Of a stretch of DNA of 64,000 nucleotides, positions 3,030-50,060 are shown piece after piece. The notes under the pieces are model-generated. The model saw only the letters and a list, made by a program, of their open reading frames with translations, ran no database searches and was not told the origin of the DNA. Every line of letters begins with the position of its first letter. Position 1 is the stretch's first letter. Source of the stretch: Zygnema cylindricum (lineage: Eukaryota; Streptophyta; Zygnematophyceae; Zygnematales; Zygnemataceae); the NCBI GenBank assembly GCA_037447655.1, contig JBBHKE010000354.1, positions 124,001-188,000 of the forward strand, in the 5' to 3' direction. A program made the translations under genes and the position numbers.

Positions 3030-3031
3030 TA

Positions 3032-8265: not shown

Positions 8266-8283
8266 ACTTATTAGAGGAAATTT

Positions 8284-10085: not shown

Positions 10086-10109
10086 ACATGAAAGAGAATT
10101 GGAATTGGA

Positions 10110-10304: not shown

Positions 10305-10335
10305 GAATGTAATGTGTTTTAACTGAGGTTAGCTA

Positions 10336-10350
10336 AAAATAAGGGGGGGA
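10336..10350 (+). promoter_or_regulatory. Polypurine tract of gypsy0
   Basis: AAAATAAGGGGGGGA ends three bases before the 3' LTR start at 10354. This purine run is the expected RNase H-resistant primer for plus-strand synthesis and supports the LTR boundary. Confidence 0.75.
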
Positions 10351-10353
10351 TGA

Positions 10354-11373: not shown

Positions 11374-14300
11374 CCCTCGCAAGCTCTTTCTGACATTCGC
11401 TGACCTTTAAAGTTTGCGTCGCCTTTTTGCCATTCTGTCTTGAAATTTTAATTTCCTAAAAAATTTGGTCGCAAAATTTTCGTATGAATCATTAACTTCC
11501 TTCGCTCTTTCAAATATTACGTACAGATATAAAGTTTAAAGAATATTTTAAGATTTTAAAACTATTAAAACTAACCTATTTGGTCCTAGTCATAATTGAG
11601 AAACGATGTTCACTAGTACGACATAATGGAACGTTGTTATAGTATACACTTTAAATAGACATCTCCTCATATTTATTGGGACTGCCTAATGGAGAAGGGG
11701 CCTCATCCGATTTTGTAGATGGCGACGCGTGCCACAAAGAATCACCAATCACGTCACAAAGCCCATTTGCCTTCTGACAAGGTGTACGCAAATCCACTAA
11801 AATCCAAAAGTTTTTGTCGGAATATATCCTGTCACGCTCCTTTTGCATTTCTTTCAAGTTCGTGGTTACCCGCAGTTTGAGTTTACCTTACGAACAGAAA
11901 AGGTTGAAAAAGCAACAGCTGAAATAAAAACGAGCGTATGCAAAAAAAAAGGGACTAAAACAAGACCAAACGTGTGAATTAATTCGACGAACGAAATATT
12001 AACAACATTTGAATGACGAAATGTGAGCCCACATAAGATTGACGCACGAAAATAAATTGCATAACATTGAAAAAATAACACAGTTGATCATTAATAGTGT
12101 TGTTAACAACATATTAGCGCCCTTAAATTTTTGCCCCTAAATCTAAACTAGAATTTATAATATTTTTTTTTTCTTAAATAATATAAATAGGTTTAAATAG
12201 TGTCATTTATGCTAGTTCAACAAGCACCAAAATAATGTAATGTTCCAAATATGTCGGTTCGTACGTAAACAACCCAAACTTTTGTCTTAAGTACACAATA
12301 AATGTCAGAAAAGGGCCTGATACTAGAAAGTGATTGGCATTGACACTGCAATACGCACTAGCATTTGATCGATAGTCTAAACTATGGGGGGGAAATTAAG
12401 CGAGCTTGTTCCCAAGGTCATTCAAACCAAAATAGCACTTACATCACAATTTTTCTTCTTACCCTAATAATTCTTTACAGATAGCTATTCACTATGTTCC
12501 ATTAACAAAGCACAAAATAATGAACCAACAAAAACATTGTACAAAATGAAACACCATATTCCAAAGGACTTTGGTCGATCCGGGGATCCGCATAGTATTC
12601 CAACATTTTGTTCGTGACATAATCGACCGAATACCTTTCACACAGTTTGAAGGTGGATGTACGAATGAATTCACGCTCGATTTGACCAAACCTTGAATAA
12701 TCGCTAAACGTATTGATTCGGTATGGTTGAAGTGTAATTACTAGAAGATGAAAAATTACGAATAAGAGTCATAACCATAGGAATTGGAGATAACTTGGTT
12801 GTTAAGGGTGAAGATGGTATGCATGTAGCGAGAACAGGTGGTGGTACATCTAAAGTAGTAAACGTAAGATTTGTCGTGCATGTGTCAAATAACGTGAAGA
12901 TGCATGCAATATCATCAGCTGTGCTCCAATTAAAACTAAATGATAACAAGACATCGTGATTGAAATAAAAACAAAAGTGAAAATGGATAAATAATAACAA
13001 GACAAGGTGGAAGAAAGGGAAAGGTGAACAACTTAGCTGGTTATGGTTAGTTCGGTTTAATACTAAGCCGATGGATGGCCACTAGGCCCCCACAGTCTAT
13101 TTATATTCCTTGTAGGAGTTATCCTATTGAAAACAATCTGAATTCAGACTTAAAAAGAGTAAATCAAAACAGAAACAAACGAGAAGGAAAAACAAAAATT
13201 GAAAATGACAATATGCCAAACACTTATGAGGTTTCAGATAACCAAACTCAAAAGATGCGCATAAGCCAAATAGAAATAAATACAAAATAAAAAGAAATAA
13301 AAACAAAAAAATGATATTCCCAACATGCAACTTCCACACCAATTAAAGTTCAGCCACAGCCGGGAAAAAACGTTTGTGTTATGAGGACGCGATCGAAATC
13401 TACACAAACATATGAAAAGTGTTGAAGGCAAACCGTGTAGGTCTTGGCTGAAGCCGTATAGATTAATATGTAAGGCTTTTCAAGAGATTGATAATGTAAC
13501 TGAAACTAGACGCTTCGCGCTAAGGCAGAAAATCGCCTCTAAGCTTTCCGGACAATTTTACAAAGAAAAAAAAAGATGGTTCAAAAAATCTTCAATACTG
13601 AAAACAAAAATTCTTGCACTCGAAAATTGTTTGCAGGAAATAATCTAAAATCAACTAAGTACCAAGGCTTACGCCAAGCAAAAACAAGCCAATAAGAGTA
13701 CAGCGTGCTATGTTAGTATTCGCGTCTATATTGGATTCAACCAATAGCCGGCCAAAATCTTATGCCCTACGTTACAGAATCTATTAGCTACGGATTAAAA
13801 CCCTTCGTATCTACGTGGGAACGCGTGAACCTCCAAATGGTTCATGACTTAAAATAGTCCAATCGCGTAGCGTAGTCAAAATTGATATTCGGTTTGTCTG
13901 TCACTCGCGTCAACGGTCCAAATGTCACCTTTCAAAACTCGTATTTTTCCGCGTCGATGGTCGAGATGCTCGTTTGTGCGAAACGATCAAATTTGTCGTC
14001 AGCCAAAATTTCGGGGAATGAAAGTATGTACGGTAGAATCCTAGATACGGACGCGAACGGTAAACTTTGTCGTTTGCTGAAATTACAAGAAAAATAAATA
14101 GGTAAAGTCCACGTGTACGACGATGTAAATATGTATGGTCAATGCGAACGCAAAATGTAAGTATGTGCGGTTCTGCAAAACCCAAATAATACAAAAACAC
14201 AAATTAGTGTGGCGGCTGCCCGTCCTAATACCTAAATTTAAACAAGGAAAGTGGCCGACGAGATGTGGCATGACAGCTGCTGTGCATGTGTCATATAACA

Positions 14301-14459
14301 TGAAGATGCCTGTAATATCATCAGCTATGCTCCAATTAAATCCAAATGATAATCAGAAATCGTGATTGGAATAAATACAAAAGTGAAAATGGATAAATAA
14401 TGACAAGACAAGGTGGAAGAAAGTGAAAGGTGAACCACTTAGCAGGTTATGGTTATGTT
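11374..14459. other. Sequence without recognisable genes; 175-bp direct repeat
   Basis: No domain-bearing reading frame was found. A stretch at about 12880-13052 recurs in the same orientation at about 14283-14459 (shared blocks AATATCATCAGCT, GAAAATGGATAAATAAT, AAGACAAGGTGGAAGAAAG), 1.4 kb apart. The right copy abuts the C-run at the 3' end of the DNMT-gypsy element, so these may be pieces of its LTR or a small non-autonomous element. Short frames at 11651-11857 (-), 12492-12689 (-) and 13882-14097 (+) match nothing I recognise. Confidence 0.4.
13412..13648 (+). CDS. Unrecognised small basic reading frame
   Basis: A 78-residue frame starting MKSVEGKPCRSWLKPYR and ending LENCLQEII-stop. It is rich in Lys and Arg with a heptad-like Leu/Ile pattern in its second half, suggesting a helix or short coiled coil. 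It lies between the two copies of the 175-bp repeat. No homology is recognised and there is no splice or promoter evidence; it may be chance or an exon of an unknown gene. Confidence 0.15.
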   Translation: MKSVEGKPCRSWLKPYRLICKAFQEIDNVTETRRFALRQKIASKLSGQFYKEKKRWFKKSSILKTKILALENCLQEII

Positions 14460-14524
14460 TATCTATTCCCCCCCCCCGTAACACTTTAGCCAGCAAAAGA
14501 GCTGGCCAACACGACCAGAAGCTC

Positions 14525-14662
14525 GAAATATCCGTGGCAAAACGAGTGACCATCCGAAACAGCCAACAATGGTGGCATGAAACACTTCATGTGAAACCCC
14601 AGATTGTAGTAATCACAAAGTAACATGGTAATTTCCCCGTCCGATCGATGCCAAAAGGTATA
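14525..14662 (-). pseudogene. PHD zinc finger at the C-terminus of gypsy1 pol
   Basis: PHD fingers (C4HC3) read histone H3 tails. The segment (residues about 104-149 of the frame starting at 14971) has the layout YTFW - RSDGEITMLLCDYYN - GFHMKCFMPPL - DGHSFCHGY. The central CDxxN, GFHxxC, PPL and DGxxFC elements are PHD hallmarks. Of eight zinc ligands, the third Cys, the His, the following Cys and the seventh Cys remain; the others read Tyr, Trp, Tyr and Tyr, three of which fit single TGT/TGC-to-TAT/TAC transitions. Upstream sequence (NYAPCYLPDLSHDMDP) links it to the integrase tail. An ancestral functional finger is inferred; this copy could not bind both zincs. Confidence 0.7.
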
Positions 14663-15019
14663 TGCTGTTGCCTCCGTAATAAGCATCCGCATGGGATCCA
14701 TATCATGCGACAAATCAGGTAAATAACATGGAGCATAATTCTTGGAGTGCCCTAGAAATGTCCGCGTGTTCGCTCCTTGTAATCCTAACATTCCGTTTGG
14801 ATCCACCTCAATGATCCATAGGATGTGTGTAGAAACATATGTGTTCAAAAGTGTCAAAGGATTGCTTGCGAAAATACACATAGTCTCCCACCTTATAGGT
14901 TGCGGCCTGTAACTGCTGCTTCGAGTTGTGGCAAACCGAAATGTGTCATGATGCGAGTCTTGGCAAACCAAAGTGTGTCTTGATGCTAGGCAATCTGCAG
15001 TTTATCAAAAGTCATTGGA

Positions 15020-15620
15020 ATTTCACGCGCAAAAAACAAAGCACGACGAGGAAGTTCTTCCAAAATGATGGGGTTTGACATTAGCAAAAGTGGAAAGCTT
15101 GCAGCTTTCTGAATATTGCCACGGAGCAACACTTGTCGCACTAAACAAAACATAATTCGGGCTAAAATTAGCCAGACTTACTTGAACTGACATGGAATAT
15201 CCCATGGCAATGTAGCCGAGGGACTCGTCCATAACTGAAATGTGTATCTCTAAGCAATGCTTGCGCAAGGCACGCTTTAATGTCTGGACTGCGCGTTCAG
15301 GCGATCGGCCTGAGGGTGATCGCGACTAGTACGACGATGATCAATGAGGGCCTCATCAACATCTCTTAAAATTCTCCTCTAAATTTTGTACCTTCATCCG
15401 TAAGGACCACGGTTGGGGCACCGTTTCTCATAAAGACATGTTGTTTAAAGGTTGCGGTGGTTAACTTTGCTCTCTTGTGAGGTAGAGCTACGACTTCTAC
15501 CCACATAATGAAATTATCGATCATTATTATGATGTATTGTTTTCCTCTACGTGAGATGGGAAAAAGTTTCGCTAGACTGACCGACCATCGATAGAAAAAA
15601 CCCCCAATGGGTAGAGGTGG
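15020..15620 (-). pseudogene. Integrase core and C-terminal region (gypsy1)
   Basis: Reading minus: QYIIIMIDNFIMWVEVVALP at about 15540-15480 (first catalytic Asp of the DDE core), APTVVLTDEGTKFRGEF at about 15420-15370 (second Asp), then sequence equivalent to SRDHPQADRLNERAVQTLKR in several frames at about 15310-15260 (catalytic Glu), and the motif LGYIAMGYSMSVQVS ... FSPNYVLF at about 15215-15140, which corresponds to the 'SPYxLLFGR' block of gypsy integrases. Frameshifts separate these pieces. The N-terminal zinc region is not clear. Confidence 0.8.
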
Positions 15621-16109
15621 GAGCGTAGTCTGCGGATTAGAGAAAGAATTTAGAGAAAGAATTTCAGAGACAATCTAAGGTAGCACACTTGTGTAAAACA
15701 ACAGCAATATCGACTTGTATTCTTGACCACCAATATGTGCTGACGGCTACGTCGCGGTAGTGTGGTGTCCAGCTCGGTGTGAATCTCTCGATGGGTGAAA
15801 GTCCCTAGGGCCGAGGATGTGTCTATGTCTAATTCATAGCAAACGAGCTAAAGATCCTTCGAGCCGAAGATAATTTTTGGCTCTCTTTTTCACTCTGTCT
15901 TTTTCGTCCGGACCTGAAAGCCTGGGAGGATAGGACAAGTATGAGAGGCCCATCACGCCAAGGATTCGTGGCGGGGAGAGGGTTCGGAATATAGGCCAGA
16001 CAGTAAGTAAGATAATAACCCAATGACATGGCGAGAACATGGTCATCATTGAAATCTTGTCGAACTCCGTTATTCGTCGTTCAAGGCAAAGAATTTTGGG
16101 AAATTTTGT

Positions 16110-16400
16110 CCGCGTTTAGACTAAGCAGACCGGGTCGGTGAATTATTTCAACCTCATATTCTTGCATAATTAAAGCCCATCGGGCTAGCTTTTTGGAAAA
16201 AGCTTATCGTTAGTCATCAACCAATATAAGGGCTAATGGTCAGTTAGAAGTGTGAAAGGCAATCCATACAAATAATGGCGGTAGTGAACAACTCCCCAAA
16301 CCGCGGCTAGACATTCCCCTTCGTAACTACTATAATTTGATTAAGCACGATTATTGCTTCTACTTGCGTAAGCAACTTCATTCCTCTCCGCTCAACTCTC
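16110..16400 (-). pseudogene. RNase H C-terminal part (gypsy1)
   Basis: Minus frame reads KGNVMAVVWGVVHYRHY-like sequence in two frames and then LYGLPFTLLTDH and LYWLMTNDKL, matching the Glu- and second Asp-containing end of gypsy RNase H. Stops and a frameshift are present. 15620-16110 continues as a decayed linker toward integrase. Confidence 0.7.
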
Positions 16401-16883
16401 TTTGTCAAAATGGCAGGGATTTCGGGTTTTCCAAAATATGTTTGGAGACAAAAAGGAGTTTGTGGTTAGAGGAGAGACAATCAGAGCACTCGATAAGGCG
16501 GTTTTAATTTTTGGTTGAATCTGATCGGGACCCCATATGAAGGCCACTTCCTTCTTGAGAAGGTCGTTTAACGGAGATGGGAAGGTAGTGAAATTAGATA
16601 CAAACCTACGAGAATAATTAGCAAGTTCGAGAAAGGCTCCCAGACTTGTGAGGTCTGTGGGAGCCGACATTTTACTGATTGCCTTTACCTTTGCTTTGAG
16701 AGGAGTGATCCCCTCAACCAAGATAAAATGGCCGAGGTAAGGCACTCCCTCGACTCCAACGGTGCATTTTGCAAGATGACACTTTAATCCGACCTTTTTT
16801 GATTCAGTCAATACCCATTCGATGTGAGCAGCGTGCTCTTTTATAGTAGAGGAGGCAATGATGAGGTCATCGATGTACAATTC
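16392..16883 (-). pseudogene. RT palm/thumb, 3' part (gypsy1)
   Basis: Begins at the catalytic box LYIDDLIIASST (YIDD intact, about 16878-16845), then KKVGLKCHLAKCTVG, VPYLGHFILVEGITP and LGAFLELANYSRRFV, the standard gypsy RT thumb and connection blocks, ending LLKKEVAFIWG. It is open for about 160 codons. The solo LTR at 16886-17868 lies immediately upstream of YIDD and separates it from the fingers. Confidence 0.9.
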
Positions 16884-16885
16884 TC

Positions 16886-17868
16886 TGTCCTCCATTGGAC
16901 TCCAGAATTCATAAAGCCTCTAGATAGATATTAACTAACCCACTTTTAATAGCAACCACTGCTACCCAAGCGGACAAGCAGACATTCAAATAGCTTCCAT
17001 ATGCAGCTTGAACTTCTATAAGTCTGTAGGAAAAATAATCTCTGAAAATGCCCAAACAGGCGATAAGTTTTGAGGCAGTGAATATGCCAATTTGTACAAA
17101 CTCTTAAAGTTAGGGGTGACTACCCACCAAAATTTACGAAGTCCTGATTTCTTGTAATAACTGCTATCTATTGAAGTACGGACCAATCAAAATGCTGTAC
17201 CGTACCAAAAAGTACTACTGCCGCTGTACCTTTTGTACGACCTATATATGAATAGGTTATTTAGTGGACGCTTGTCCACTTTCACTCATTCGTACGTTCC
17301 TCGGAATTCGCGCAACCGAATGTTATCTCTCCATGTGGCGCTAGGTCGTGCCACGTCACTAAATGCCAAAGTGACCATTCCGGGATCTTGGTGATGACGT
17401 GCGCTGTCGGATAGAATTTCGTATTTGATCTCAACCGTCGAAACAAATGTTTGATTTATTTGTTTCGTGCAGAATCATATTCGTAGTGTATTTAATCCCC
17501 TCCATGTACTTATGTTTGTATTTCCATTAATTACAATAACTACCGTTACATTTTTTAAGTGTTTATCAAATCCTATATACTCTAACAAACTTCTACAACA
17601 GACCGGCTAGAGCTAACCGCTACGCCATGCTCAGTTGGTCGGGGGTTCAAACCCTGCCGGACTCAACCTTTTGTTGAGAATGACTTAGGTCACTCTTTAG
17701 TCTTGCACAAGTGGAGCTGAGGCAGCCATGGCTCCACTACTCTCTCGATCACTCTCTTTCATTGACTACAATAAGTATGGGGGATGGAGAGAGAGAGGTG
17801 GAGACACACTGCTTGTGCTCTCTTCACTTTTTATCTGTTTTAGACCTAGAAAATACTTAGTATCAACA
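16886..17868 (+). repeat. Solo LTR of copia family A, inserted in gypsy1 RT
   Basis: A 983-bp sequence with TGTCC...CAACA ends and about 1-kb full-length similarity to the LTRs at 30190, 39054 and 53834. No internal copia sequence accompanies it, so it is a solo LTR left by LTR-LTR recombination. It splits the RT reading frame just before the YIDD box. Flanking 5-mers (TTCTC, CGTTG) do not match, so the target duplication has decayed or been lost. It contains the tRNA-like module (17589-17668). Confidence 0.88.
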
Positions 17869-18337
17869 CGTTGTAACATCTAGCAAACTAAGAACCTCCG
17901 AGAAAAAAGCCCTTAACCTTTTGAAATATCGTTGGAGCGTTTTTCAATGCGAATGGCATTATGGCTTATTCTCATCAGCCATCACTACCCCAAATGGCAG
18001 TTTTCAGTCAGTTTTTTTCCTCTATCTCAATTTGATTCAATCCTTGACGAAGGTCAAAGATGCTAAAATAATTCACTCTGCCTACGTGATCAAATATTTC
18101 CTAGGCATGAGGCATGGGATGACGATTTTGAACAGTTCTAGCATTCAGTTTACAATAATCACCACACATTCGACGATCAGTAAAATTACCCTCAGATTCC
18201 TTTTTCCGAGGCATGACAGTGGAAGTTGCGAAGGTGGAGTGTGGCCAATAGATTAGGCCAGCTTCCTCTAGTTCACAACATCGCTTGTCTACCATTTTCC
18301 ATTCAGTTTCTGACACAAAATATTTCCGTTTGAACAT
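17869..18337 (-). pseudogene. RT fingers/palm, 5' part (gypsy1)
   Basis: Minus frame from 18337: KYFVSETEWKMVDKRCCELEE, STFATSTVMPRKK, RRMCGDYCKLNARTVQNRHPMP (the 'CVDYRxLN' block), then in shifted frames FSIFDLRQGLNQIEIEE and MPFALKNAPTIFQK at about 17920. These are RT fingers and palm motifs up to the site where the solo LTR interrupts. The order and spacing match gypsy RT. Confidence 0.85.
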
Positions 18338-18948
18338 CGGGCGGTCATCTTAGAGATCTATCGACATCTTATAAGTGGTATGACGACCCACATCGTTCAT
18401 TAAAAAAGCAAAGGCGTCGACATTCCGTTAAACTACGTCATTTATTAGTTCTTCTTTGGCTTTTGTTAGATTGGTGCAAAATATCCATTTACGAGCATCG
18501 AGATTCTCCGTTGTCATGGCCTCCATGGCTTTTGCAAAGGCGAGCTGCTCATATGCGATTAGCATTTGTCCTAACTTGTAAGCCACAGGTTTCTGTTTAA
18601 GGCAATTAACCGAATGATTCTAGCTATATTTTTTAAAAGCAACAATCCAATGAGGAGTGGGTGGATTATGCATGGAACTTTCAGACTGAACAGCCGTGTA
18701 TGCGGGAATAGACCAAGACATATGGTTAGGATTGAGGAAATCGTAGATAGAGATTTTCGGAACTGGTGGAATTGGAGAAGGAAAGAGGAAAAATTGAAAT
18801 GTGGTCCCTTTGAGAGTGGGACGGCAAGATTTACTTAGTGATGCATTCCCACCCCCAGCTGGTTGAGACAGATGTGCTTGAGAGTGGCGACCAGCTGCAA
18901 ACCCAAGACCTAAAACAAAAGCCAAAGACTGCAGGTCAATGACACAAC
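18338..18948 (-). other. Linker between DNMT and RT (gypsy1)
   Basis: About 600 bp without a recognisable domain. Gypsy2 has a comparable linker (about 44560-45300) that includes a 'DWTLWEQLFPQQKAPVSKLL' segment resembling the pre-RT region of gypsy pol. A plus-strand frame at 18614-18838 and a minus frame at 18620-18925 appear to be chance frames. Confidence 0.45.
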
Positions 18949-19842
18949 CTAATAAAGTGCATCTTTTACGTTCTCTAAGACAAATAGTGGCTGTAGTGCC
19001 AAGGATGAAATGTAGGAGGTGTTCTCGCTTGTAGAGGTAGGCTCTTCGCGCTCAGAGGTATAATTGTTTCGGAGCATGCCAACACCATCATTAAAGAATG
19101 CATGTGGATGTGGGTAAGAAACTAAGGTAGGAAGAACCTTGAGAGGTTCACCTGAGACATTGATATTGAAATTAGGGGGACAGTCCTTTTGAATGCAAGG
19201 TTTCACCTTATGGAAAGGAATAAAGGCAGGCTGAATGTCTGTAGGAGACGGACGCAGTGACATGTTAGCACAGAGTCGACCAATATGAATCAGGTTCGTC
19301 CATTTGGAGCGAACCCGGTGTGCTAGTGAACCATGGCGAGCGGCGTCAATAAAAATGGGTGGACCAATTAATTGTTTGATCCGTTGATAATCAGCTAGGA
19401 TTGTGAGTCTTGGATTGTTATAGGCCACAACATTTTCCAAGATATATCCCATAGGATGTTATAAAGTTTGTAGGAAATGCAAGATGCTAACCAATTCATA
19501 AAATAATTTGGTGCGGGGATCGGCCAAACCGAGACCTTTCCCGGCCCGTGACATTCCTTAGCACTCCCATCCGCCAAAAACTAGATCGATTGGACCAATA
19601 TCATGTAAGTGATGGTTGCCCACAGTTCGGATATCTTGTGGGAGGGCAGTATACATATGCTTGTATACAGATTTTGGTAACAAATGCGGGTATTGGGAAA
19701 GCAGCAGATTACAATGATATAGTTGTGCTTTCTGTGCTAAAAGATCAATCTCAATTGCATAATAAAATCGGATTAATAATCCATTCCGCAAACATGAAAC
19801 GAGGGAAGTGTCGATTCCAATGAAGAGCTCCAAAATCACCAA
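18949..19842 (-). pseudogene. C5 cytosine DNA methyltransferase domain, DNMT3/DRM-like (gypsy1)
   Basis: Transfers methyl from S-adenosylmethionine to cytosine C5. One minus-strand frame covers the domain with only two stops (19555-19557 and 19459-19461). Motif I reads VILELFIGIDTSLVSCLRNG, with FYYAIEID after it (SAM binding, 19839-19744). Motif IV reads DLVFGGWEC-stop-GMSRAGKGLGL (about 19585-19520), with catalytic Cys at 19561-19563; the stop replaces the Gln of the usual PCQ, and Glu replaces its Pro. Motif VI is LENVVAYN (19440), with FIDAARHGSLAHRVRSKWTNL near 19350-19290 matching the motif VIII 'AHRxRYFWGNL' of DNMT3/DRM. A later LKVLPTLVSYPHPHAF block (about 19150) is shared with gypsy2. 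It sits between protease and RT. Inference: it methylates element cDNA or target chromatin. Confidence 0.9.
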
Positions 19843-20269
19843 TCTATTTGGATGATGACCCAATTGGACTGAATTCCAATTAATAGGAAGAAACTCATAA
19901 GAGTCTGTAGGGATTGGGATTGGAGGAGAGATTGCAGAAAGTGGAATTGACAAGGTTTGGTTATAGATACGGTTAAATTCCCTTGTGTCTATAAGAAATC
20001 CGATGTCACTGAATTTTTTTGGCAAGTAAAAACTATCGAGCAGAATTTCTTCTGTTGACAATGAATACAATATTTCGCCCCCCACAGAATTACTTGAAAA
20101 TGCAGGGATGAAGGTGGCAAAATGCGCCATAACATGCATGGGTTTCGTAGCGGAAATTAGCGCAATGCAGATTTTGCGTTCTGAGAAGTTAGTGGGCCTA
20201 TAAGAAAATATCTGATCATGCATGTCAACTCCACCCCTTACACAAGCATGTCAACTCCACCCCTTACAC

Positions 20270-20588
20270 AAATTATAACGTCGTGTCCCATTAGGCATTC
20301 ATAGTCACTACATTCAATGACCAGAGCGTGAACCAAGATCTTAGCAAAGTTTGTGGCCGTTCCGTTTTAGAACCTGAAAATGAGTGGTTCTTTAGTGATT
20401 CCTAAGACTGGCTCGGTTGTACCTGCTGATGTTAACAAGCGAGTCGAAGTGGACTGAAGCTTGTCCAGAGTTAGACCAAGCTTGAGTGCAAAGCTAGAGC
20501 CCAATATCACCGCTTTTACACCCGTATCCATGAGGGGCACGGAAGGGCTATACGCTCGTAATTCAACTCTGCCAAATGTCACAGGCAT
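20270..20588 (-). pseudogene. Retropepsin-like protease (gypsy1)
   Basis: From 20588: MPVTFGRVELRAYSPSVPLM then DTGVKAVILGSSFA, giving the catalytic DTG loop, and further on VHALVIECSDYECLMGHDVI in another frame (about 20330-20270), which corresponds to the C-terminal 'ILGxD' strand of retropepsins. It precedes the DNMT region in the same transcriptional direction. One frameshift near 20370. Confidence 0.8.
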
Positions 20589-20677
20589 ACAATTTTGGCG
20601 TTTATTCTCTTGACGAAGTATATGAACTTATGAAGGATCACTGAACATAAACAAAAGTATCCCGGCCACGTCGAATA

Positions 20678-21686: not shown

Positions 21687-22358
21687 TGATAGGATTTAGA
21701 ACTGAGAACTCATTTAGCGACGAGACATTCTTGTAGCTAAAACAGCGACGACCAGCGACAAAGTAGTTTCGTCGCTATAAATTTGAAGTGACGTAGAAAT
21801 TGATTGTTCATTTTGTTTCCTTTCACGTAAGTTTGAGTCATACTATAGAAGTGACATGGAAATTGTTTGGTCGTTTCGTTTTGTTTCATGTACGTTTGAA
21901 ATGTACTATACAAGTGACGTGGAAATTGTTTGGTCTTTTCTGTTTACGTAAGTTCTAGTCGTACCGTGTGGTTCAAGGCCGTTCATAATTGACGTTTATA
22001 TTCGCGTACCTTGTTGTGTTACGCATTGGTGTAGTTTGATTAGTTAGCGCTCAACGCGTTTTACATGTACGGTTTGGTTGGTATTGTTACGTGACATTTG
22101 AAGGAGTATATTGAGGCGTGGTGAGAGAGAGGTTATTATCAATTGAGTGAGAGTTTTTCCTCTTTGTGGATTATTAATGAGTTAGAGGAATTGAAATAGC
22201 TTGACAGCTTAGTTGAGTTTGAGGAATTCAAGGAGTTAAAAATGAGAATGTTTTGAAGGTGTGAGGAATTTATGTAAGGAATTTTTTTTCTTGTGTGTGT
22301 TTTATTGTTTATGCTTCCACTTGCATTTGCACTCAGTTTGTATTATACGATCCTTTTA
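21687..22358 (+). repeat. 5' LTR of the LARD
   Basis: Matches 25687-26331 over its whole length, starting at the shared TAGGATTTAG and ending ATACGATCCTTT. It carries about 27 extra bases, including a duplicated 'gtgac(a/g)tggaaattgtttggtcgtttc' type segment around 21850-21930. Confidence 0.85.
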
Positions 22359-22360
22359 AT

Positions 22361-22372
22361 TGGTATCGGAGC
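22361..22372 (+). promoter_or_regulatory. Primer-binding site of the LARD
   Basis: TGGTATCGGAGC, two bases after the LTR, differs by one base from the plant-type initiator-Met primer site TGGTATCAGAGC. Confidence 0.85.
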
Positions 22373-22624
22373 AGGTTATGCGTCAGTTTATGAGAGACGT
22401 GTAGGCAATGAGAAAGAGAGTGAATTTAATTTCGAGGTGCTCAATTTGACGGTTACCTTCCGCCGGACCCTTCAAGTTTGAGAACATTTGCAATTCGGAT
22501 GTTCGCTACGAAATTCCGTGGATGAGTTGATGCAATTTATGAAAAAGAAAAAGAGGAGAATTCGGATTCTTTTTCTAGTTTGAAAGAAATATAAGAGTAA
22601 AGATGGAGTGGAGGTAAAGAGCAA

Positions 22625-23056
22625 TTGTTCTCTTGGAAGGAAGAAGAGTACTCCTTGCCTCCTTCCGACTTCGACATTTGTTCGGAGAAACCATTCAGTT
22701 TTTTATTTGAGGAAGAATCTCGGATGTATGGAGGTCCCAGTAAATTGGAATATCAATTTCCAAAAATGTTGGACAAATTGAGGCTGTGTATTGATGCCCG
22801 ATTCCAATCTGAAGCAAGAGGCAGAGAGAACCATTATCCCTTTTTGAATGGCGATGGAGATGAGAATGGAAGAGAAAATGCACGTCCATATTCAAAAGAG
22901 AAATTGAAGAGAAATGTTGAAATGAAGCGTGACATTAAAGTTTACATTGATGATTGGACTGATGAAATTTTATTTTTCCGAATATCTTTGAAATCTCAAA
23001 AATTTGAAGGTTTAAATTCGAGTTCTACTTTAGATTTCACGAATCTAAATCAGTAG
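22625..23056 (+). CDS. Unrecognised reading frame in LARD interior
   Basis: A 143-residue frame starting MFSWKEEEYSLPPSDF, rich in Glu, Lys and Phe, ending TNLNQ-stop. It is the longest open frame of the element. No zinc knuckle, protease or polymerase motif is present. It may be a decayed gag relative or simply purine-rich non-coding sequence. Confidence 0.2.
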   Translation: MFSWKEEEYSLPPSDFDICSEKPFSFLFEEESRMYGGPSKLEYQFPKMLDKLRLCIDARFQSEARGRENHYPFLNGDGDENGRENARPYSKEKLKRNVEMKRDIKVYIDDWTDEILFFRISLKSQKFEGLNSSSTLDFTNLNQ

Positions 23057-23206
23057 AAGAGAAAAGAGAGAACAAATTATTTCAAATGGGATTTAATTTA
23101 TGAAGAGGAAGAGGCTGGTTAAGCTTTCTTATATTCGGCAAGGAGAAAGGGTTTCAAACTTGCATCATTCTAGTTCGGTGTTGGGTGACTTAGGTTTTAT
23201 TTTGAT

Positions 23207-23530
23207 GTGCAAATTCAAATTGAGATGGGAGGAAGAAAAGGCTTGTGTCCTTTGAAGAGTGAACCAGATCCCAATCCGGATGGAGGTGATTCTTATTTTG
23301 AAGTAGAAGAAGAAGATGATGACGAAAAAGAAGTCAACGAAGAATACGAAGTTGTCAAAGAAGTCCAAAAGGGCGAAAAAGACAAAAGTGAATTAAAAAG
23401 GAAAAGGAGTGAAGAAAAGATTGATGTGTTGAGAGAGAAGAAGAGTGTAAAGAAGAGTGAAGATAACAAGATTAAAGTTTTTTTTGGGAGGAATGAAGTG
23501 TGTCGATGTGATATATCGACTGAGGTGTAA
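23207..23530 (+). CDS. Unrecognised acidic/basic reading frame in LARD interior
   Basis: A 107-residue frame containing a long Glu/Asp-rich stretch (about residues 31-60) then a Lys-rich stretch. The low-complexity GAA/GAG codon run makes an open frame likely by chance. No domain recognised. Confidence 0.15.
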   Translation: MQIQIEMGGRKGLCPLKSEPDPNPDGGDSYFEVEEEDDDEKEVNEEYEVVKEVQKGEKDKSELKRKRSEEKIDVLREKKSVKKSEDNKIKVFFGRNEVCRCDISTEV

Positions 23531-25686
23531 ATGAGTGTTTTATGAAGAAGAAAGTGAATGTGATGTCGTGAGTTGAAAATGAATCTCGACATTTTGAAGA
23601 TCTATTTTTGGAGGGAGTTTTATTTCATACTTTTGTACATTTGTTTCTCGAAGAAGTGCATTGAAGTCAATTGAGGTGAATCCTGTGACAATTGCCTAAA
23701 TCACCGATTAGCTTGGAAGAAGCATTATTCAAGTTTGGCATTCTCAATTTTTGTCCGCAACACCATTTTTGTTGTGAATTTTGTTGATGTTAAGTTTTAA
23801 TGTTTCCATGATTAGAGGAAAAAGAGGAGGATTTCCGTGTTGGAACCGATATCTTTACTAGCAGTTTTGGTCATTTTTCTAACAAAGAAGAGGAGGAAGA
23901 AGTGACGTTCCATATTGGAACAAGACCGATATTTCGCCGACTGTTTCGATCGTACTCTGACTTTGTCAAACGCCGAACTTTTGTATTGTCGTTAAGTTTT
24001 TTTTTATTTCGTTGGTATTTTCTTTTATTTGGTTCAACATTGTAATGTGGTGTAATTTTGAGGTGAAGTTTTGTACGGCAATGTGTTCGATTGTTACAGT
24101 GAAGTCTAATATGGTGCGGCGGTTACCAAAATCTCTCTGTGGATTCTTATTGATACGACGGTAACCTGAATTGATACATGAATTGTTATACGTCGTTGAG
24201 ATTTGAAGTTTAATGTACATTATTTGATTTTGACGTATCTGTGAAGGAGGACTGGAGGAGTGATCGTTTCGTACAGGGCTTTAATGCTTCTTGTACTTTA
24301 GAGTTTGCCGTACATTTCCTTGCAAGATTTTTTTGGTGGTGACTTTTGGTCGTCGTTAGATTTTGTCGGTCGCAGAGTTATTCGAAGTCGAATTATGCGG
24401 ATCTTCTCAAAGCTTATTGGTACCATGTGGATGTGACTATGGTTTTAGTTGACAGAAAAAATATTTTGGAAGTGCTAATTTTGATGGTGGTTGTGACGCG
24501 GAGGTATTTGACGTGGATTTGCGGCGTGGGCTTTTCATTTATTTTGATTTCAAAATTTTACCGCCGTGTTACCGTTTTTTTTTCCGTTTGGAGCGGCATT
24601 TTGTTTTCTTTTGAAATTCTAACAACAAATGGAGAAGCGCTTTGTGGCGTATGCGTGAATTTTGACGCGCAAAATTACGGATGAATTTTGAGTGATGATT
24701 GAAAGAAAAAATTGAAATCAAGTTGTAACCTTTCAAAGGGTGCTACGGCACTTGGAGTTGATTGAAGTTTGCGAGGATTCTGTTGGAGGATTATTCAATT
24801 TGGCGTTAATGGAAAAATCGCAATGAGACATTTGATGCTTTATCTCGTACATTCATCCGGTGTTTTAATTTTTCGTTTAAGTATGCTTCATGACGTTTTA
24901 CGGAGGGGAAGTTTTAAGTTGTGATTGGTTTAATGATTACAAATTTGAGAGGGGGATTGTTAGACTCACACCATGAGTGCTGTCAAGTGTTTGTCGAGCG
25001 GTCGTCCAGTTTATCTTTTTGTTGTTTTGTGTGAGTTCGTTTACGTGATTTTGGAGTTGAGGTGGTTGTTCGATAATTCCCACATTCTGAAGGGAATTGT
25101 AAGGTTTTACATTGTGGGATTTGTGTTAGCGTCGGTTGGCAATTTAGCAACCATTCTATGCTTGGTTTAAATGTGTATTTTGTGTGACGGAGTTATTTGT
25201 GTCTTGTCTTACTTGAATTGTATGTACTGAGGGTCCCGGTCACTGAACGGTTTTGTGTCATAGTGATTGTAGTGGTCTTTGTTCTAAAATAGTAACATGT
25301 CGTACGTTGCCCGCGCGCGTTTCGCGCGCTGCGTTTGATTTGTTAATTCGTTCTTAGGTACTTGTTCATTCGTTTGAGGTCTTGAGGTTCGATTTGAGTA
25401 AATCGGGCATCTGCGTGATTTGCTTTGTTTCGCATCGCGGCACACAATTCCATTTCGGTTCGACAAGGAGATTTGTCTTTAGGTTGCGACATACATTTGT
25501 ACGACCGATATCGTTTCACTTTGTTGTGGAGTTTTCCGTTTGACGTTTGCGTACATTCCTATAAGCGTGTACTAACAGCTACTGATTTGTTAACCAAAGC
25601 AACATTAAAAGAAGTCTATGAAACAGGAAAGAAATTAGTAGGCATGAAGTGAGAGGGGGCTTTAAGTGTCTCAGTTAGAGGGGGAA
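23531..25686 (+). other. LARD interior without genes
   Basis: No domain-bearing frame except the last ~70 codons (25425-25652), where LLTKATLKEVYETG matches the terminal 'LTKxLxxxxF..c+.lvG' segment of copia RNase H. This is followed by stop codons and the purine tract AGTTAGAGGGGGAAAG. Confidence 0.5.
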
Positions 25687-43605: not shown

Positions 43606-43870
43606 TAATAAGAGTTCGGGGTGATAAGAGTGAAGTGTACTCCATAAAGGTATGGCCGGAAAAGAAGTATGGCCCACACTGCGGCGAGTAATTCCCCATG
43701 GTAACTGTTGTAATTCCCTTCAGCGTTATTATTAGTCCGGCTTGCGTAGGCCACTACATACTCAGCCCTGGCATCGTCCAATTGCGCCAAAATTGCTCCC
43801 AATCTGAACCTGCTCCAATCTGTATAAAGGAGAAAACGCCCCTGGTGATCGAGCATCCGGAGTATAGCTT
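43606..43870 (-). pseudogene. RNase H (gypsy2)
   Basis: Read minus: MLDHQGRFLLYTDWSRFRLGA has the first catalytic Asp in YTDWS, then EYVVAYASRTNNNAEGNYNS, YHGELLAAVWAILLF with the catalytic Glu, and YLYGVHFTLIT, after which the sequence runs into the inverted LTR. The last Asp-containing part is therefore missing. Confidence 0.85.
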
Positions 43871-43984
43871 GCTGCTTAAGGGAATCTTTGAGGAATTGGA
43901 AAGCAATCTGTTGTTCTTCCTTCCACTTCCATTCCTAATCCTTTCACAATTATAGATTCAATGGCTAAGCATGGCTACTAAATT

Positions 43985-44720
43985 CATGAATAAACCTTCG
44001 TTAATAATTTGCAAGGCCTAAGAAAGTACGAAAAGCAGAAATGTACTGCGGGGGAGGAAGAGCGTCAAGGGGTGCCACCTTAACCATTTGGGGACCGACT
44101 GTCCCGGGAGTCACCTCATGACCCATATAAATGATTTTCTGCACCCCAAAGATGCCCTTCCCCGGGTGAAACTTCAAGATGGCTGCTTGGAGTGTTCGGA
44201 GAACAATCTGTATATACTCCAAGTGTTCTTCAATGTCTTCGAGAAGATGATCACATTGTCGATGTAGCATTAACGAAGTCAATTCCTCCGAGAGCCTCGT
44301 CCATGGCCCGCTGGAATTTGGCAGGTGCATTTTTGAGGCCAAAAGGCGTGTATAGCCATTCATATAGCTTAGAGCCTACGGAAAAAGCGGTCCTGTCCCG
44401 GTGCTTTAGTTCCATTGCAATCAGTTGAAATCCATTCTTCATATTCAATGGGACTAGATGGTGGCCCCAGCAAGAGAGTCAAAGATCTTTTCCGGGGTAG
44501 GCATAGGATAACGGTCGGAGAAAGTTACCGCGTTAAAATATGGTAGTCCCCACATATCCGGAAATCTACAGTTTTTCCTAAAGAGTCTTTCTTTGGCGAG
44601 AGCATGGTTGGTGAGGCAAACCCATGTAGCCCTGTAATCTCCTGTATTTGCCCTACGTCCACCAAAGTTTGCACCTTTGTGGTAATAAACTCATTCTCCA
44701 TGAAACTGAGAGGATATTGT
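43985..44720 (-). pseudogene. Reverse transcriptase (gypsy2)
   Basis: Right to left: LHGFASPTMLSPKKDSLGKT and FRICGDYHILTR (fingers, about 44620-44540), NMKNGFQLIAMELKHRD (palm, 44440), YTPFGLKNAPAKFQRAMDEAL (44360), YIDNVIIFSKT in the YxDD position (about 44255), then KFHPGKGIFGVQKIIYMGHEV and TFLGLANY at 44001. Several frames; YIDD has become YIDN. Confidence 0.88.
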
Positions 44721-44773
44721 TTCTACCTAACAGTTGCCGTCTCGTCGATCAGGTCTATCCAAAAAGGGGTCCC

Positions 44774-45300
44774 CTAATAGATTCCTACATCTGTGTCAAA
44801 CCAAGCGAACACCTGCCCGTTCTTCTCTAACAACTTAGATACCGGGGCCTTCTGCTGTGGGAATAGTTGTTCCCATAGAGTCCAGTCCATCTTCCCGGGT
44901 TCCATTGCCGCCAATGCTTTTGGTGGCCGACCCCATAGGGAGATGTCGAATTTCTGCTCTACCTCTGGGTTTGTCCCTTTCTCGGTTGTTAAAACGCTGC
45001 TACTAACAACTTCTTTTGACCTACCCTGATCTATGTCTTTGCTCCCCCCCCCTAAGGAAACTCTTGGGTTTAGTGTGTTATTTGAATGAAATTGTGTGAA
45101 TTTTTCCATGCTATCTGAATGAAATTGTGTGTAATTTTCCCTTCTTTTCTCTCTCCCCTCCTCAAGCTACAGAGTAGCTTGCATGGCAAGCAACTGTGGA
45201 GCTTGAAGGTATGCTCCCCGTGACTTTGGAGACAGGAGGCTAGAGAATGCCACAGAATGTTGCAACACCCAAGAAATTGCATTCAAATCCATACTTTGCC
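44774..45300 (-). pseudogene. DNMT-RT linker (gypsy2)
   Basis: An open frame 45109-44774 reads KFDISLWGRPPKALAAM then DWTLWEQLFPQQKAPVSKLL and NGQVFAWFDTDVGIY. The final part resembles the pre-RT segment of gypsy pol ('FxxVFAxxxxDMPG'). No catalytic domain. Confidence 0.55.
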
Positions 45301-45318
45301 CGATTAAACTGCACCTTT

Positions 45319-45918
45319 TTAAGGCTGAGACCCCTGGTCTGCTGTGGTTCCTTTTCGGAATCCCATTGCTTGTTCTTGGTCCTCAATGCTTGGTGATGTA
45401 CAAGTATTTGCTATACTATCAAATATCATCTCGGGTGCGCCTCTCAGGTAAGCATGGCTGTTAGGAAAAGATACCAGGGTTGGTAAGGCCTTTACTGGAT
45501 ATCCGGGTATATAGCAACAAAAAACGGGTGCTCTGTCGGCTTTCGTCACTGAAACTGTGATGTTGGGATCTACATGCTAGGTTTTCGACAGCTTTTGGAG
45601 GATGTGGAGAGGAACCAAGTTGGTCCAATAACCCTGAAATCTGTGGGCTCTTAATTGGACGTGAGTTGCATCAAAAACTATTGGAGTCCCCCAAACATTG
45701 GTCACTTGGTTCCAGCTATTGACCAACTGTTTTCTTTTATCATCTGTGGGGTGAACATTTTCAAAGACGTACCCCACAGGCGTGTCTTGACATTCCTCTA
45801 TCTTTCTTATTAGTCGCGTCATCTGGAAGAATGTTCTAGTGCGAACATCTTGGTGTCCCCTGCCTTATTCTGCTAACGAATACCCCTGGCACGGCCATCT
45901 AGAGATTACCAGATCCAC
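45319..45918 (-). pseudogene. C5 cytosine DNA methyltransferase, C-terminal two thirds (gypsy2)
   Basis: One minus-strand frame with two stops (TAA after SLAE, TAG after LSKT). Motif IV is VDLVISRWPCQGYS with an intact catalytic PCQ (Cys codon 45889-45891). Motif VI is GYVFENVHPTDDKR (about 45765) and motif VIII GTPIVFDATHVQLRAHRF then WTNL (about 45660-45600), very like the 'IDAKxVSAAHRARYFWGNL' block of DNMT3/DRM enzymes. The VKALPTLVSFPNSHAY stretch is shared with gypsy1, and EDQEQAMGFRKGTT near 45350 resembles the 'ERExxxGFPxGxT' motif IX/X. Motif I (SAM binding) and the protease are missing: immediately upstream is gag-like Pro-rich sequence, so a deletion joins gag to motif IV. Confidence 0.9.
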
Positions 45919-46373
45919 CTTTCCAAGCTATTCCAAATGTTAATTGGTGAGTCATTGTTTTCTAATTTCTCGTGTCCCCTCTCCCCTTCTTACTCACTTT
46001 CTGCGTCAGAATTTGCTGTCGGAGGTGTCACTTGCGAATCCGTGGGTGGTCTCTTGGCCAAGTATCTTTCGAACCATTCCTGATGTGTTTAAGTGGTTAC
46101 AATATTTTCTTTTAGTTGCGTTTTCTTCTAATCTTCGAAACCAGGAGGAAGTTTCTTTGGAGCCGGGAGAGGCGGATGAGTCGGTTTCAGGCCTAGCCCA
46201 ATGTCATTGTTTAGAAGGATTGCTCGTGGTGTAAAAGATAAGGGACCCGTGGCTTTGCAGCTGTGGTCATTTTGTTCCCTCGTTTGTTTGTCCTTTCTCT
46301 GGGAGGACGTTGTAGAGCGGAGTTGCTTGCGATTGTCCCCTACACCAACGTTCCAGGCCCCAGACAGAAATGT

Positions 46374-48240
46374 TCAGGCATGATGAGCCTTCGGCGGCTC
46401 CATATCCCAACCCATTAGTTCATCATCATCTTCACCCACCGTAGTCTGCTGCTCCAACTCTGCTAGCCTTTGTGACAATTCTTGTTTTTGTTTCTGCAGT
46501 TTTTGAGCAAGTGTAAGAGGATGAGGTGTGTCGGCAGATGATCTCAAGCGGAGAGCAGCCAGCTCTGCTACATAGACGGCCAATTGAGTGCTCTCCTGCT
46601 GAATGATATGTTCCAGAGTTAGTCTCCTAGGTCCTAGCTCATCTACAGATCAACGTCCCCAGCGATACAAAAGTTGCAATGAAAAGCATTAACGGCTGTT
46701 TCCCCTTTTCGCGTGAACAAGGCAGTTTGCATCATCTCCTTTGGGACTTCATTTTTCTAGAAACATTGTCTTTCTTTATGGCTCATGAACCCACAGGCCT
46801 TACATTTTGACCCATCAGTAGTATACTTTCCCCTTAGCTCATTTGAGAGCTGAGCATCATCAAATTTAGGAAGTCTAATTTGTCTCAACAAAGATAGAGA
46901 CATCTTAGCGGTTTCAGACCGTGGAGTAGGTTTATAGGTGTCCTTCTTGACTGGCGTGCGGTCTCCTCGTCCAACTCTTCCTCCCAGCTTGCATTGTTGC
47001 TGCTTTTGGGTACGTTCTGCTCGTTTTTTCTCAAACTTTTTTTGCTTGATAATGAGTTATGGGTTGAGCTTCCGTAGACATTGTTTCCATCGTGACCAGT
47101 TTGGTTTCAGTGCAGGCAATTGTAAAGGTAAACTCTTTCATCCGTGCCCATTGCAGGTTCGGAGTTTGGTGTTAGATTCTTGTTTCCCCTTAAGCTCCCG
47201 CAAAGCATGAAGTTTCGTCTGTTTCTCTTGAATGAGAGAAGATTCCTCGGGGAAACCTACAAAGTTGGCTCTCAATTTCCCGGTAACACCCTTTTCCCTC
47301 GCTTTGCTGTGCACAAAATGATCATAGAACTTCATGGCGGCCAATGAGATTTCCTAAGTCGTGGGATTCCGGTCATGAATGGCCTGACTGGCACTCTTAT
47401 TGTCGAGAGCTGTCTATCCTGTTGTCCCGAACGAATTTCGAACAGCGACATAATACTTAGAGGCCATAGCCGGGGTATCAATGGTGGGCAATTTGGTCTT
47501 GAAGCAGAGGCTGGAGAGGCGATTGAACAGCGCCTGAGGGGTTTCATTCTTCAAACAGCAGAAGTATGTAAACTCCTTAATTAAAATTTTCGTTCATTTC
47601 TGTGTAAAAACGAGTCTCTATGTGTCAAGAAGAGTGTTGCAGGGATTCTGGTTGGCGACCATCCGCGTGGGTGCCTCAGCGGCGCCTACAGGTGGTTGAC
47701 ATAGGCCCTTCCTTGGGCCAGTAGTTTCATGTCCATGGTGAAAGTGGGCGTAAGAGGAGCTGCTGCGGCAGCAACCAGGTCAGCCACTGTGTGAAGAGCC
47801 TCGGCGTCCAGAGCCCGATCCAATATTTTGATTCTTGGAGCCATCGACAAAGGCTAACGCTCCTTATAGTCGGCCAAAGCTCCTCCGGCTAGATAATTGA
47901 CCATCATTGGGAACATAGTGGTTTCAAAATCTTTTGGGATGGCCCTTCCCCTGTATTTATTAATTTCACACTGCGTGAAGGAATTCCACAGCATTTCAAA
48001 ATCAGATAAAGCAATTCTCGAGTTGTCTCGGTGAAGATCTGGATGTCTCCCATTCTCCTTTCTTCTTCGGTAAGATTGAGGAACCTTGGTGATGCTTGTC
48101 CGTTCGGGTTGACAAACTGAGCCGATGAGATTGCTCCAAGATTTGCTACCTCGAGATCCGACACCGGTCCTTACTCCAATAGGAAGGGCGGTTGTACCAG
48201 CAGTGGTCCTCCCCCCCACTGAGGAAGGTTTGGCTCTTCA
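46374..48240 (-). pseudogene. gag with zinc knuckle (gypsy2)
   Basis: Read minus from 48219: MGGRTTAGTTALPIG, ISDFEMLWNSFTQCEINK-like capsid sequence and PMMVNYLAGGALADYKER. It continues through several frames (for example SRDMKLLAQGRAYV-like at 47720) to a CCHC knuckle CKACGFMSHKERQC at 46763-46804 with perfect CX2CX4HX4C spacing, and ends with a coiled-coil-like stretch LAQKLQKQKQELSQRLAELE (about 46520-46460). Capsid and nucleocapsid function is inferred. Confidence 0.72.
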
Positions 48241-48699
48241 AAAAGTTGGATAGTCTTCTGCCCCTCTATATCCCAGAGAGACGCGTGCTTTTTGGAGAAC
48301 TTCCTCTTCCGATGGTATGTGAAGACGAGAATGAGGTCCCCGCGGAATGGATGGCGGTGGTGAGGGTGATGAATGGAAGCTTAGAGGAGAAGGTGAGTGT
48401 TTCTTGAAAGGAGTGTGCTTCTTAGGTCGCCACTGGGAATCTTCGGAAGGAGGAGTTCTAGAACTAGAGGATGGCGACCGTCTGTGAAGAGGCGAGTAGA
48501 CGTCGCGTTTGTGGGGTAGGCGAAGTAGACCTCAAGACCCTCAGACTGCTCCCGCTGGAGAGATGGATGGCGAGGGGGAAGAGGCGTGAGGTGGTGATGG
48601 AGGAGTAGTGGTCAGTCTCAGGGAAATGTGTAGTCTCCGCTCGGGTTGTAGCAGCACCACGGCCTCCACGGTGGAAGATCCCGCGACTTAGACAAATGT

Positions 48700-50060
48700 A
48701 AGGAGAGCTGTAGCCGCGGCTACCGCATTACTCGGCAAATCTGCACCCAACCCCTCTTTGTTAAGCCCTATTGTTTCCTCCCCTTCCCGCTAAAGAGGAG
48801 ATTTTGGACTCGGTGCTGGTGAAGTCGTGGGATCTCGCGTGACGGAGGAGTTGCCTGATCCAGAGGTTGTACTTCCGTCGCGAGACATGTTCTACGAGGA
48901 GGATCTACCTGTCCACTAAGGATTCCCCTAGATCTCTGTTTAGCTTCCCGTATCAAGATCAGCTCCTATTTCAATGCTCTCTTCCTTTCCTTTTCAAGAG
49001 CATCCCAATCTATTGCGACGGGTCCAGCCCTCGCCGTAGCCTTATCTTGCGATCGCAGGATCTCAACCAATTTTTGGGTGTTGCTCACCACACCCGAGAG
49101 ATCCGCAATCCCCAAACCAGGAACCTCGGGGTCTGTAGGCCTTGAAAGCCATAGTCCTTTGGATGGTTGGACAACTGGTTCGGAAGGAGACATAGAACTT
49201 CAAGAAATTGAGGTAGAAGGAAAGAACGACTCTTCTTTGACTAGGGGAGCGAATCGACCTTTGTTGTCGTGATGGTTAAACCGAAAATCTCTCTTAGGCT
49301 CGGGTAACTTCTGCTTGCTACTCCCTTCCCTTGTCCGGCCCCGAGAAGTTTCTCTGCCCCTAGAAGGTCTATCGGTGGCAGTTTCTTGAGATATGGTGGG
49401 CTCTTGTCGTGACGTAGATGGCATCACCGGTTATTCTCAGGCTGAGATGGGAGAGCCACTCTCGGACGAGCTACTCAAGATCTCCACTAATCCTCCCACT
49501 GGGTGTATAATCCGAGATCGGTCGCTTTTGGCAACCAGCTGCACCAACTCCTTCTTAACTTTCAACTCATGGATATTGTGAATTGCTAGAAGCTCCTTAC
49601 AATCGGGTCAGTTAGCATCCGACAAAATTTCCGAGCCCATGTATGTCTCCACTATCGCAGCCTTGGATCTGGTGTAACGTACCACCTTGGGAGGGTGGCT
49701 TGGGACCGCTTCCTTATGAGCCTAACCCTTCCTACGGGATTGGGGAGCAAAAGTCTGTCTTTCTACCATCTTTGTAGCCCTAGCCCTGGCGGCCTCGGAC
49801 AATGTCGCAAACTTTTCACGGGAAAAGACCGGAAGAGGAGGAGGTGAGGGTTGCCTCTCTGTTTGCCTCGGAGGAGTCTCAACTACAACCGGCTCGGGCA
49901 TCATTCCCTTAAAAAATTGTTCAATGTTCAAAGCTAAGATAAAAGGGACTGTTTCCTCAAGCACCTGTGACTCTTCCTCTTGTGCTACCACTTCTTGTCT
50001 TTCTAGTTCTTTATGACTGACACCAGAAGGATCCCTATCGTGAGCTTCTCCTCCGCCCAT
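48700..50060 (-). pseudogene. N-terminal, disordered part of gypsy2 ORF1/gag
   Basis: Starts MGGGEAHDRDPSGVSHKE at 50060 and runs through VVETPPRQTERQPSPPPLP, RATKMVERQTFAPQSRRKG, a basic segment SRGRETSRGRTREGSS (about 49340) and DWDALEKERKRALK (about 48990), with several single stops in place of codons. It is rich in Pro, Ser, Arg and Glu, so probably disordered. Position right after the leader and before capsid fits a gag N-terminal extension; no family recognised. Confidence 0.5.

Follow-up and report, generated by a model that had tools for sequence, protein, structure and literature searches.

A decayed Ty3/gypsy-type element with a DNMT3-type methyltransferase domain and a PHD finger in Zygnema cylindricum

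KnitGypsy-Dnmt3 from Klebsormidium nitens is described as a Gypsy element with a DNMT3-type DNA methyltransferase (DNMT) in its Pol. It is intronless, present in many copies and under purifying selection; its repeats follow the layout of DIRS elements and its domain composition is that of Gypsy, according to the legend of Fig. 4 (PMC5890265). Dinoflagellates harbor SymbioDIRS-Dnmt3, a retrotransposon with DNMT3 and DIRS-type split repeats, and SymbioLINE-Dnmt, a retrotransposon with another DNMT (PMC5890265). The streptophyte and dinoflagellate cases are repeated in passages of a 2025 survey (PMC12344493).

The window, i.e. the whole stretch of 64,000 nucleotides of Zygnema cylindricum that was analysed, contains on its minus strand a decayed element that almost certainly belongs to a large Ty3/gypsy-type family, termed family A. 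Its pol has the order (gag)-retropepsin (PR)-DNMT3-reverse transcriptase (RT)-RNase H-integrase-PHD. KnitGypsy-Dnmt3 is the nearest known kind, compared by description, not by sequence. A DNMT3 within a Gypsy Pol combined with a DIRS-like repeat layout, as given in the text of PMC5890265, was found in family A as well. The host is another one and the copy number of family A is higher. A PHD finger, present in family A, is not mentioned for KnitGypsy-Dnmt3 in the main text, and the key residues of its DNMT are reported as conserved, whereas family A has Glu for the proline of the PCQ motif (PMC5890265). A UAG readthrough context, a feature of the second family (family B), has no description for KnitGypsy-Dnmt3 in the available parts of the same paper.

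SymbioDIRS-Dnmt3 shares DNMT3 and split repeats with family A. Both dinoflagellate elements use a tyrosine recombinase or LINE machinery, in contrast to the aspartic protease and DDE integrase of family A (PMC5890265). Land-plant DNMT3 genes, e.g. PpDNMT3b, encode an unpermuted DNMT3-type domain like that of family A. They are host genes with a C-terminal DUF3444, whereas the family A DNMT3 is fused to RT (PMC6453930). An orchid Ty3/gypsy element with an AlkB m6A demethylase offers a parallel to family A, in that a gypsy element of plants acquired an enzyme of nucleic-acid methylation. AlkB is an RNA methylation eraser in an additional ORF, unlike the DNMT located in Pol (PMC9289625). Among the listed open-licence papers, no title or abstract opening reported DNMT3 and PHD together in a gypsy element, nor a DNMT3 element in Zygnema. 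No relative was found in the searched collections of viral contigs and genome contigs.

Anatomy and decay of the window copy

The minus-strand frame 19842-18949 holds two internal TAA codons. The sequence-only reading had called it a single frame with these two interruptions, which was borne out, and the frame is open further upstream, to 20250. The extended frame has 2 stops in 434 codons, whereas each of the five other frames has 15-30. Simulation of 20250-18949 with a Markov-1 model gave a mean of 19.8 stops, and two or fewer occurred in 0 of 5000 runs. The frame spans motifs I to VIII. The SAM-binding motif I, the motif IV Cys, ENV and AHR..WTNL, all named in the sequence-only reading, are present, and Glu instead of Pro precedes the Cys. 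Translated with X at the two stops, the frame matched the Pfam family DNA_methylase (PF00145, E 2.9e-8), the profile proposed for verification, above the curated cut-off. The best match in PDB was DNMT3A (E 1.6e-10); the best enzyme outside DNMT3 reached E 0.0016. Both halves of the domain share one frame without a frame jump. Queried separately, neither half reached significance in PDB (best E 0.77 and 1.3) or matched DNA_methylase in Pfam, so the score of the window DNMT depends on both halves. Based on PDB, Pfam and the identity to the uninterrupted copy L039 (64% and 61% in pieces), the DNMT3-type C5-methyltransferase with its N-terminal linker was assigned to 18707..20250 (-). The C-terminal part, 19030-18707, lies in a different frame, common to the linker and the N-terminal part of RT.

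The claimed bracketing by a retropepsin and an RT on the same strand was found as well. Upstream, a decayed PR is located at 20370..20627 (-; Asp_protease_2, E 7e-4, below the Pfam cut-off), which is 60% identical to the PR of L039 over 126 aa (window 20624-20247). Downstream, a Ty3-type RT starts at 18400. Its N-terminal part (17873..18400, -) is 72% identical to the RT of L039 over 176 aa. It is separated from the C-terminal part by an LTR-like repeat at 16878..17856, which shares 70-73% identity with three further repeats, located at 30190, 39046 and 53826. The repeat is missing in the copy L011, where 17872 is joined straight to 16877. The C-terminal part of RT and RNase H cover 15837..16877 (-; RVT_1, E 3e-8; 52% identity to L039), and the piece 16919-16395 matched the Ty3 RT with E 1.7e-13. 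A decayed DDE integrase in several frames follows at 14900..15741 (-; rve, E 1.3e-6, below cut-off; 46-73% identity to pieces of L039). The C-terminal tail at 14489..14888 (-) is 64% identical to that of L039 over 120 aa and contains a decayed PHD finger (PHF12 in PDB, E 2.9e-5). Several zinc ligands are gone, and the match to the Pfam family PHD reached no better than E 0.12.

The element ends in split repeats arranged as in genomic copies. B1 (14282..14455, -) and B2 (12876..13049, -) are 90.8% identical over 174 bp, and A2 (13050..14281, -) sits between them. The beginning of A2 lies close to the TGTCATGCC with which other copies start. Its match to A1 of the copy on contig C2602 is restricted to 115 bp with 70% identity. 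An A1 partner was not found within the window. The gag of L039 gave no match upstream of the window PR; elsewhere, a weak zinc-knuckle match was obtained (E 0.30). With neither gag match nor A1, the 5' end of the window copy seems lost. Stop codons, frame breaks, the LTR-like insertion and the lost zinc ligands of the PHD finger characterize the window copy as dead.

Two LTR-flanked elements are located on the plus strand of the window. One of them, upstream of the DNMT copy at 21690-26329, has a primer-binding-like site at 22361 and two frames (22601-23053 and 23189-23527) without Pfam match above a cut-off. The other, at 2089-11373, is a gypsy element without DNMT. It has zinc knuckles at 6393-6500 and an RT at 7594-8730 that is 32% identical to the RT of family A. 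Scanning the window for Rfam families and tRNAs yielded 0 matches.

Two diverged families in the genome

The assembly searched comprises 352,776,454 bases in 2,689 contigs. The window DNMT gave at least 133 matches with 57-100% identity, two of them being halves of one place. Thus, a family A DNMT is present at no fewer than 132 places including the window copy, some of them possibly alleles; this number is a lower bound, 132 of 1620 first-look candidates having been scored. One of the places, L010 (C2684:11481-15371), was rejected as an independent insertion. It is collinear with window 21366-17443 at about 95.6%, flanking and inserted DNA included, and is an allele or segmental duplicate of the window copy.

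A set of 36 loci, in which one place occurs twice and the window copy is L009, was mostly taken with 1.5 kb per side, too short for integrase and PHD. PR was present in 30 loci, RT5 downstream of the DNMT in 33 and RT3 in 29. Six places picked for long open frames were taken at 9.9 kb. All six have PR, DNMT, RT and integrase in this order, in agreement with the sequence-only reading, which had placed the DNMT inside a Ty3/gypsy pol, with PR on one side and RT on the other. Five of them have a PHD finger; the copy without PHD is L042. The zinc-ligand pattern of the PHD finger is visible in five family A copies.

The sequence-only reading had called for an intact copy with one continuous gag-pol-DNMT frame. 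L039 on contig C1344 is such a copy, with one uninterrupted frame of 2,395 codons. The frame contains, in order, a zinc knuckle (zf-CCHC, 8e-4), PR (Asp_protease_2, 7e-4), DNMT3 (DNA_methylase, 1.4e-12), RT (RVT_1, 2.4e-30), RNase H (4.5e-35), integrase (Integrase_H2C2, 5.4e-16; rve, 7.2e-13) and PHD (2.8e-11); the zf-CCHC and Asp_protease_2 matches fall below the curated cut-offs. Its PHD finger matched PHF12 best in PDB (1.3e-16), followed by many other PHD fingers. The order PR-RT-RNase H-DDE integrase together with the Ty3-type RT is that of Ty3/gypsy elements.

Chromoviruses are gypsy elements with a C-terminal chromodomain after the integrase, and we know of no DNMT in them. Family A has a PHD finger in the place of this histone-reading chromodomain. 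In the Chlamydomonas element REM1, one ORF holds a PHD domain; a DNMT3 in its Pol is not known to us. REM1 resembles family A as a green algal gypsy element of unusual structure, and differs by a truncated integrase in reverse frame (PMC2774666). A tyrosine recombinase in place of the DDE integrase, which defines DIRS elements, was not found in family A, given the integrase matches of L039 and target duplications in two of three copies. Based on the DDE integrase, a dinoflagellate-type element was rejected. Of the DNMT retrotransposons named in the sequence-only reading, those of charophytes were the apt comparison, whereas those of dinoflagellates are LINE and DIRS types unlike family A (PMC5890265).

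A search of the genome with Pfam DNA_methylase, in which 123 of 782 candidates were scored and all 123 listed were above the cut-off, revealed family B. The DNMT of five loci (L001, L002, L003, L006 and L008) is 37-42% identical to that of family A. Three places were taken at 9.9 kb. Compared with L039, identities were 42% for DNMT, 46-49% for RT-RNase H, 43-54% for integrase and 31-34% for the C-terminus. The order DNMT3-RT-RNase H-integrase-PHD matches that of family A, and the divergence of the two families (42% identity in the DNMT) indicates an old arrangement. Two of the places were scanned for domains, yielding PHD with E 1.3e-4 (below cut-off) and 7.9e-6, and DNA_methylase with 7e-14 and 2.5e-12.

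In 6 of 6 family B loci (L001, L002/L055, L003, L006/L053, L008 and L054), an in-frame TAG CAATTCC ends the upstream PR frame and the DNMT frame follows directly. It was located at 3914 in L053, 3862 in L055 (oriented), 1054 in L003, 1090 in L006 and 3851 in L054. UAG CAAUUA is the readthrough signal of tobamoviruses, which the family B context resembles. The DNMTs of L003 and L053 are only 51-59% identical, so the TAG context has been kept over a long divergence. No RT was found in the short stretch of L003 examined. Two repeats resembling the B1/B2 pair, 94.8% identical, were found in L055.

The window itself contains a second, decayed DNMT3 element of family B at 43620..48825 (-), detected by tblastn with pieces of L053. 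Its parts are a gag at 48825-46742 (54-69% identity to L053), a DNMT at 45951-45125 (60-82%, E 7.6e-94) and RT-RNase H at 44794-43620 (66-78%), the latter with an RT_RNaseH_2 match of 9e-29. No match to PR, integrase or PHD was obtained in this element, and its short DNMT pieces alone matched no Pfam family. The sequence-only reading had recognized the identity of the family A element and had passed over this second DNMT element, the PHD finger, the split repeats and the Glu in motif IV.

The window copy by itself, broken into several frames, could be taken for a DNMT3 gene or pseudogene of the host, located by chance between retroelement fragments. This was rejected and is considered practically impossible, since the DNMT recurs at 132 or more places, RT5 lies downstream in 33 of 36 loci, L039 is one continuous frame and the diverged family B has the same order.

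Type of the DNMT, motif IV and selection

DNMT3 is the closest among the C5-methyltransferases for the window copy, for L039 (DNMT3A, 1.5e-10; best other, 0.0029) and for L053 of family B (DNMT3A, 3e-14; best other, 6.6e-5). The sequence-only reading had proposed a DNMT3/DRM type. Its DNMT3 part is sustained; DRM was rejected. No DRM chain was found for family A in PDB up to E 0.01, DRM2 reached 2e-3 for family B in comparison to 3e-14 for DNMT3A, and motifs I, IV, VI (ENV) and VIII follow each other in one frame, not permuted as in DRM. A chromomethylase-like fragment, L007 (C514:126680-126928), was observed elsewhere in the genome. It matched 9mvy, 7ubu and 4fsx/4ft2/4ft4, the latter being maize ZMET2, at 8e-28 to 9e-28, whereas the next-best chains did not exceed 7e-12. 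Since chromomethylases belong to green plants, L007 points to a streptophyte as the most likely host.

The PCQ of motif IV is near-invariant in C5-methyltransferases. It reads ECQ in family A: of 36 loci, 35 have Glu before the Cys, one has Val and none has Pro. Pro-Cys, as in DNMT3, is present in 6 of 6 family B loci. Because family B keeps Pro, the Glu is most simply explained as a derived state of family A. Judged by these residues, the family A DNMT appears to work like or to descend from DNMT3, departing from the DNMT3 active site, and the Glu may indicate a changed or lost activity. Accordingly, the domain could be a non-enzymatic scaffold like DNMT3L that recruits or stimulates host methyltransferases, a reading favored by the near-fixation of Glu in family A only. 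The catalytic Cys is retained in 33 of 36 loci, ENV and AHRVR are retained in most, and dN/dS is low, all of which argues against a scaffold. DNMT3L misses several catalytic residues, unlike the family A DNMT. A scaffold is held to be rather unlikely.

The median dN/dS of the DNMT was 0.20 (13 stop-free copies, 20 usable pairs). RT showed a weaker constraint in its own larger stop-free sets, with 0.38 for RT5 (119 pairs) and 0.31 for RT3 (75 pairs). In nine matched copies, stop-free in DNMT, RT5 and RT3, the medians were 0.19 for DNMT and 0.17 for RT with 5 of 36 pairs usable. Purifying selection on the DNMT is hence about equal to that on RT in matched copies, a comparison based on few pairs. 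All copies in the selection tests are best matches of the window DNMT plus the six chosen ones, a non-random sample. Distances of DNMT and RT correlated with r 0.40 (30 of 35 family A copies), a value reached by 8 of 5000 permutations.

CpG observed/expected ratios were 0.85-0.94 in family A and 0.65-0.67 in family B. A strong signature of CpG depletion was sought in family A and not found; the little depletion leaves no clear trace of self-methylation. Alternatively, the DNMT might act on the host, methylating its DNA or RNA to blunt the defence or to change the epigenome, from which the element would gain indirectly. DNMT3 domains of Symbiodinium retrotransposons showed CG methylation activity on genomic and plasmid DNA of yeast (PMC5890265), and the high copy number of family A also suits this explanation. 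The fusion within Pol, seen in the downstream RT5 of most loci, ties the DNMT to the particle and the cDNA instead. Action on the host is regarded as quite unlikely, and action on the element's own DNA is preferred.

Split repeats, element ends and a proposed mechanism

Family A has DIRS-like split direct repeats in the layout A1-coding-B1-A2-B2, found in three of the four copies examined with flanks. The fourth copy, on C1407, has B1-A2-B2, and A1 was not found in the 1.6 kb examined. None of these four copies shows the two equal terminal LTRs of Ty3/gypsy elements. On C1344, A1 and A2 are 100% identical over 931 bp and B1 and B2 99.6% over 243. The corresponding values are 96.3% over 1220 and 100% over 191 on C2602, 80% over 1225 and 95.7% over 186 on C449, and 98.3% over 239 for the B repeats on C1407. 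In the pieces examined of L042 and L044, an A-type repeat end is located at the start of the stretch, just 5' of the coding part. The copy L040 on C1407 has a tandem repeat in its 5' part (oriented 738-1058), in a family A copy without findable A1. The near-identical repeats, above all on C1344, suggest that family A moved recently.

The copies on C1344 and C2602 start with TGTC and end with GACA (TG..CA ends). Both are flanked by 4-bp target duplications, TTGG and CCCC; on C449, the duplication is not intact (TCAT vs GCAT). At the B1-A2 junction, all four genomic copies have the palindrome GACA-GC-TGTC, which includes two additional bases; in the window, the junction is altered. This junction would represent two unprocessed element ends joined in a circular or tandem-BA intermediate. 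The integrase would cut the palindrome of the circular intermediate with the loss of two bases. This tandem-BA circle is put forward tentatively on the basis of the junction.

In the proposed mechanism, the DNMT3 domain would be made as a portion of Pol, in family B via readthrough of the UAG stop, which would set the ratio of Gag to Pol. The Pol-borne DNMT3 would be packaged together with RT and integrase. Its putative activity would methylate cytosines in the cDNA of the element itself or in the new insertion; this self-methylation has, in our estimate, a little less than an even chance of being correct. The PHD finger, in the manner of the chromovirus chromodomain, would tether the integrase to chromatin with a given state of the H3 tail; such targeting is held to be somewhat more likely than not. 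With DNMT3 and PHD together, copies pre-marked for silence would enter tolerant chromatin and cause low damage to the host. The explanation as a whole, comprising the architecture of families A and B, self-methylation, PHD targeting and the circular intermediate, is considered equally likely to hold or to fail.

A more far-reaching version, which we regard as unlikely, concerns family A only. It would be a C5-methyltransferase with a selectively kept Glu-Cys and perhaps a new substrate, which during reverse transcription could be RNA or an RNA-DNA hybrid. Together with the PHD-bearing integrase in one polyprotein, it would form a self-contained module that marks and aims new copies, via a circular intermediate cut by the DDE integrase.

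Zygnema represents the second green-lineage genome with DNMT3-carrying gypsy elements, after one known charophyte, and is probably among the algae closest to land plants. The pol of its elements pairs a DNA-methylating kind of domain with a histone-reading kind at the tail. Mobile elements are usually silenced by enzymes of this kind. Why one of them would carry such an enzyme becomes testable here, as DNMT and PHD finger occur in a single Pol, the catalytic motif is altered and two diverged families coexist in the same genome.
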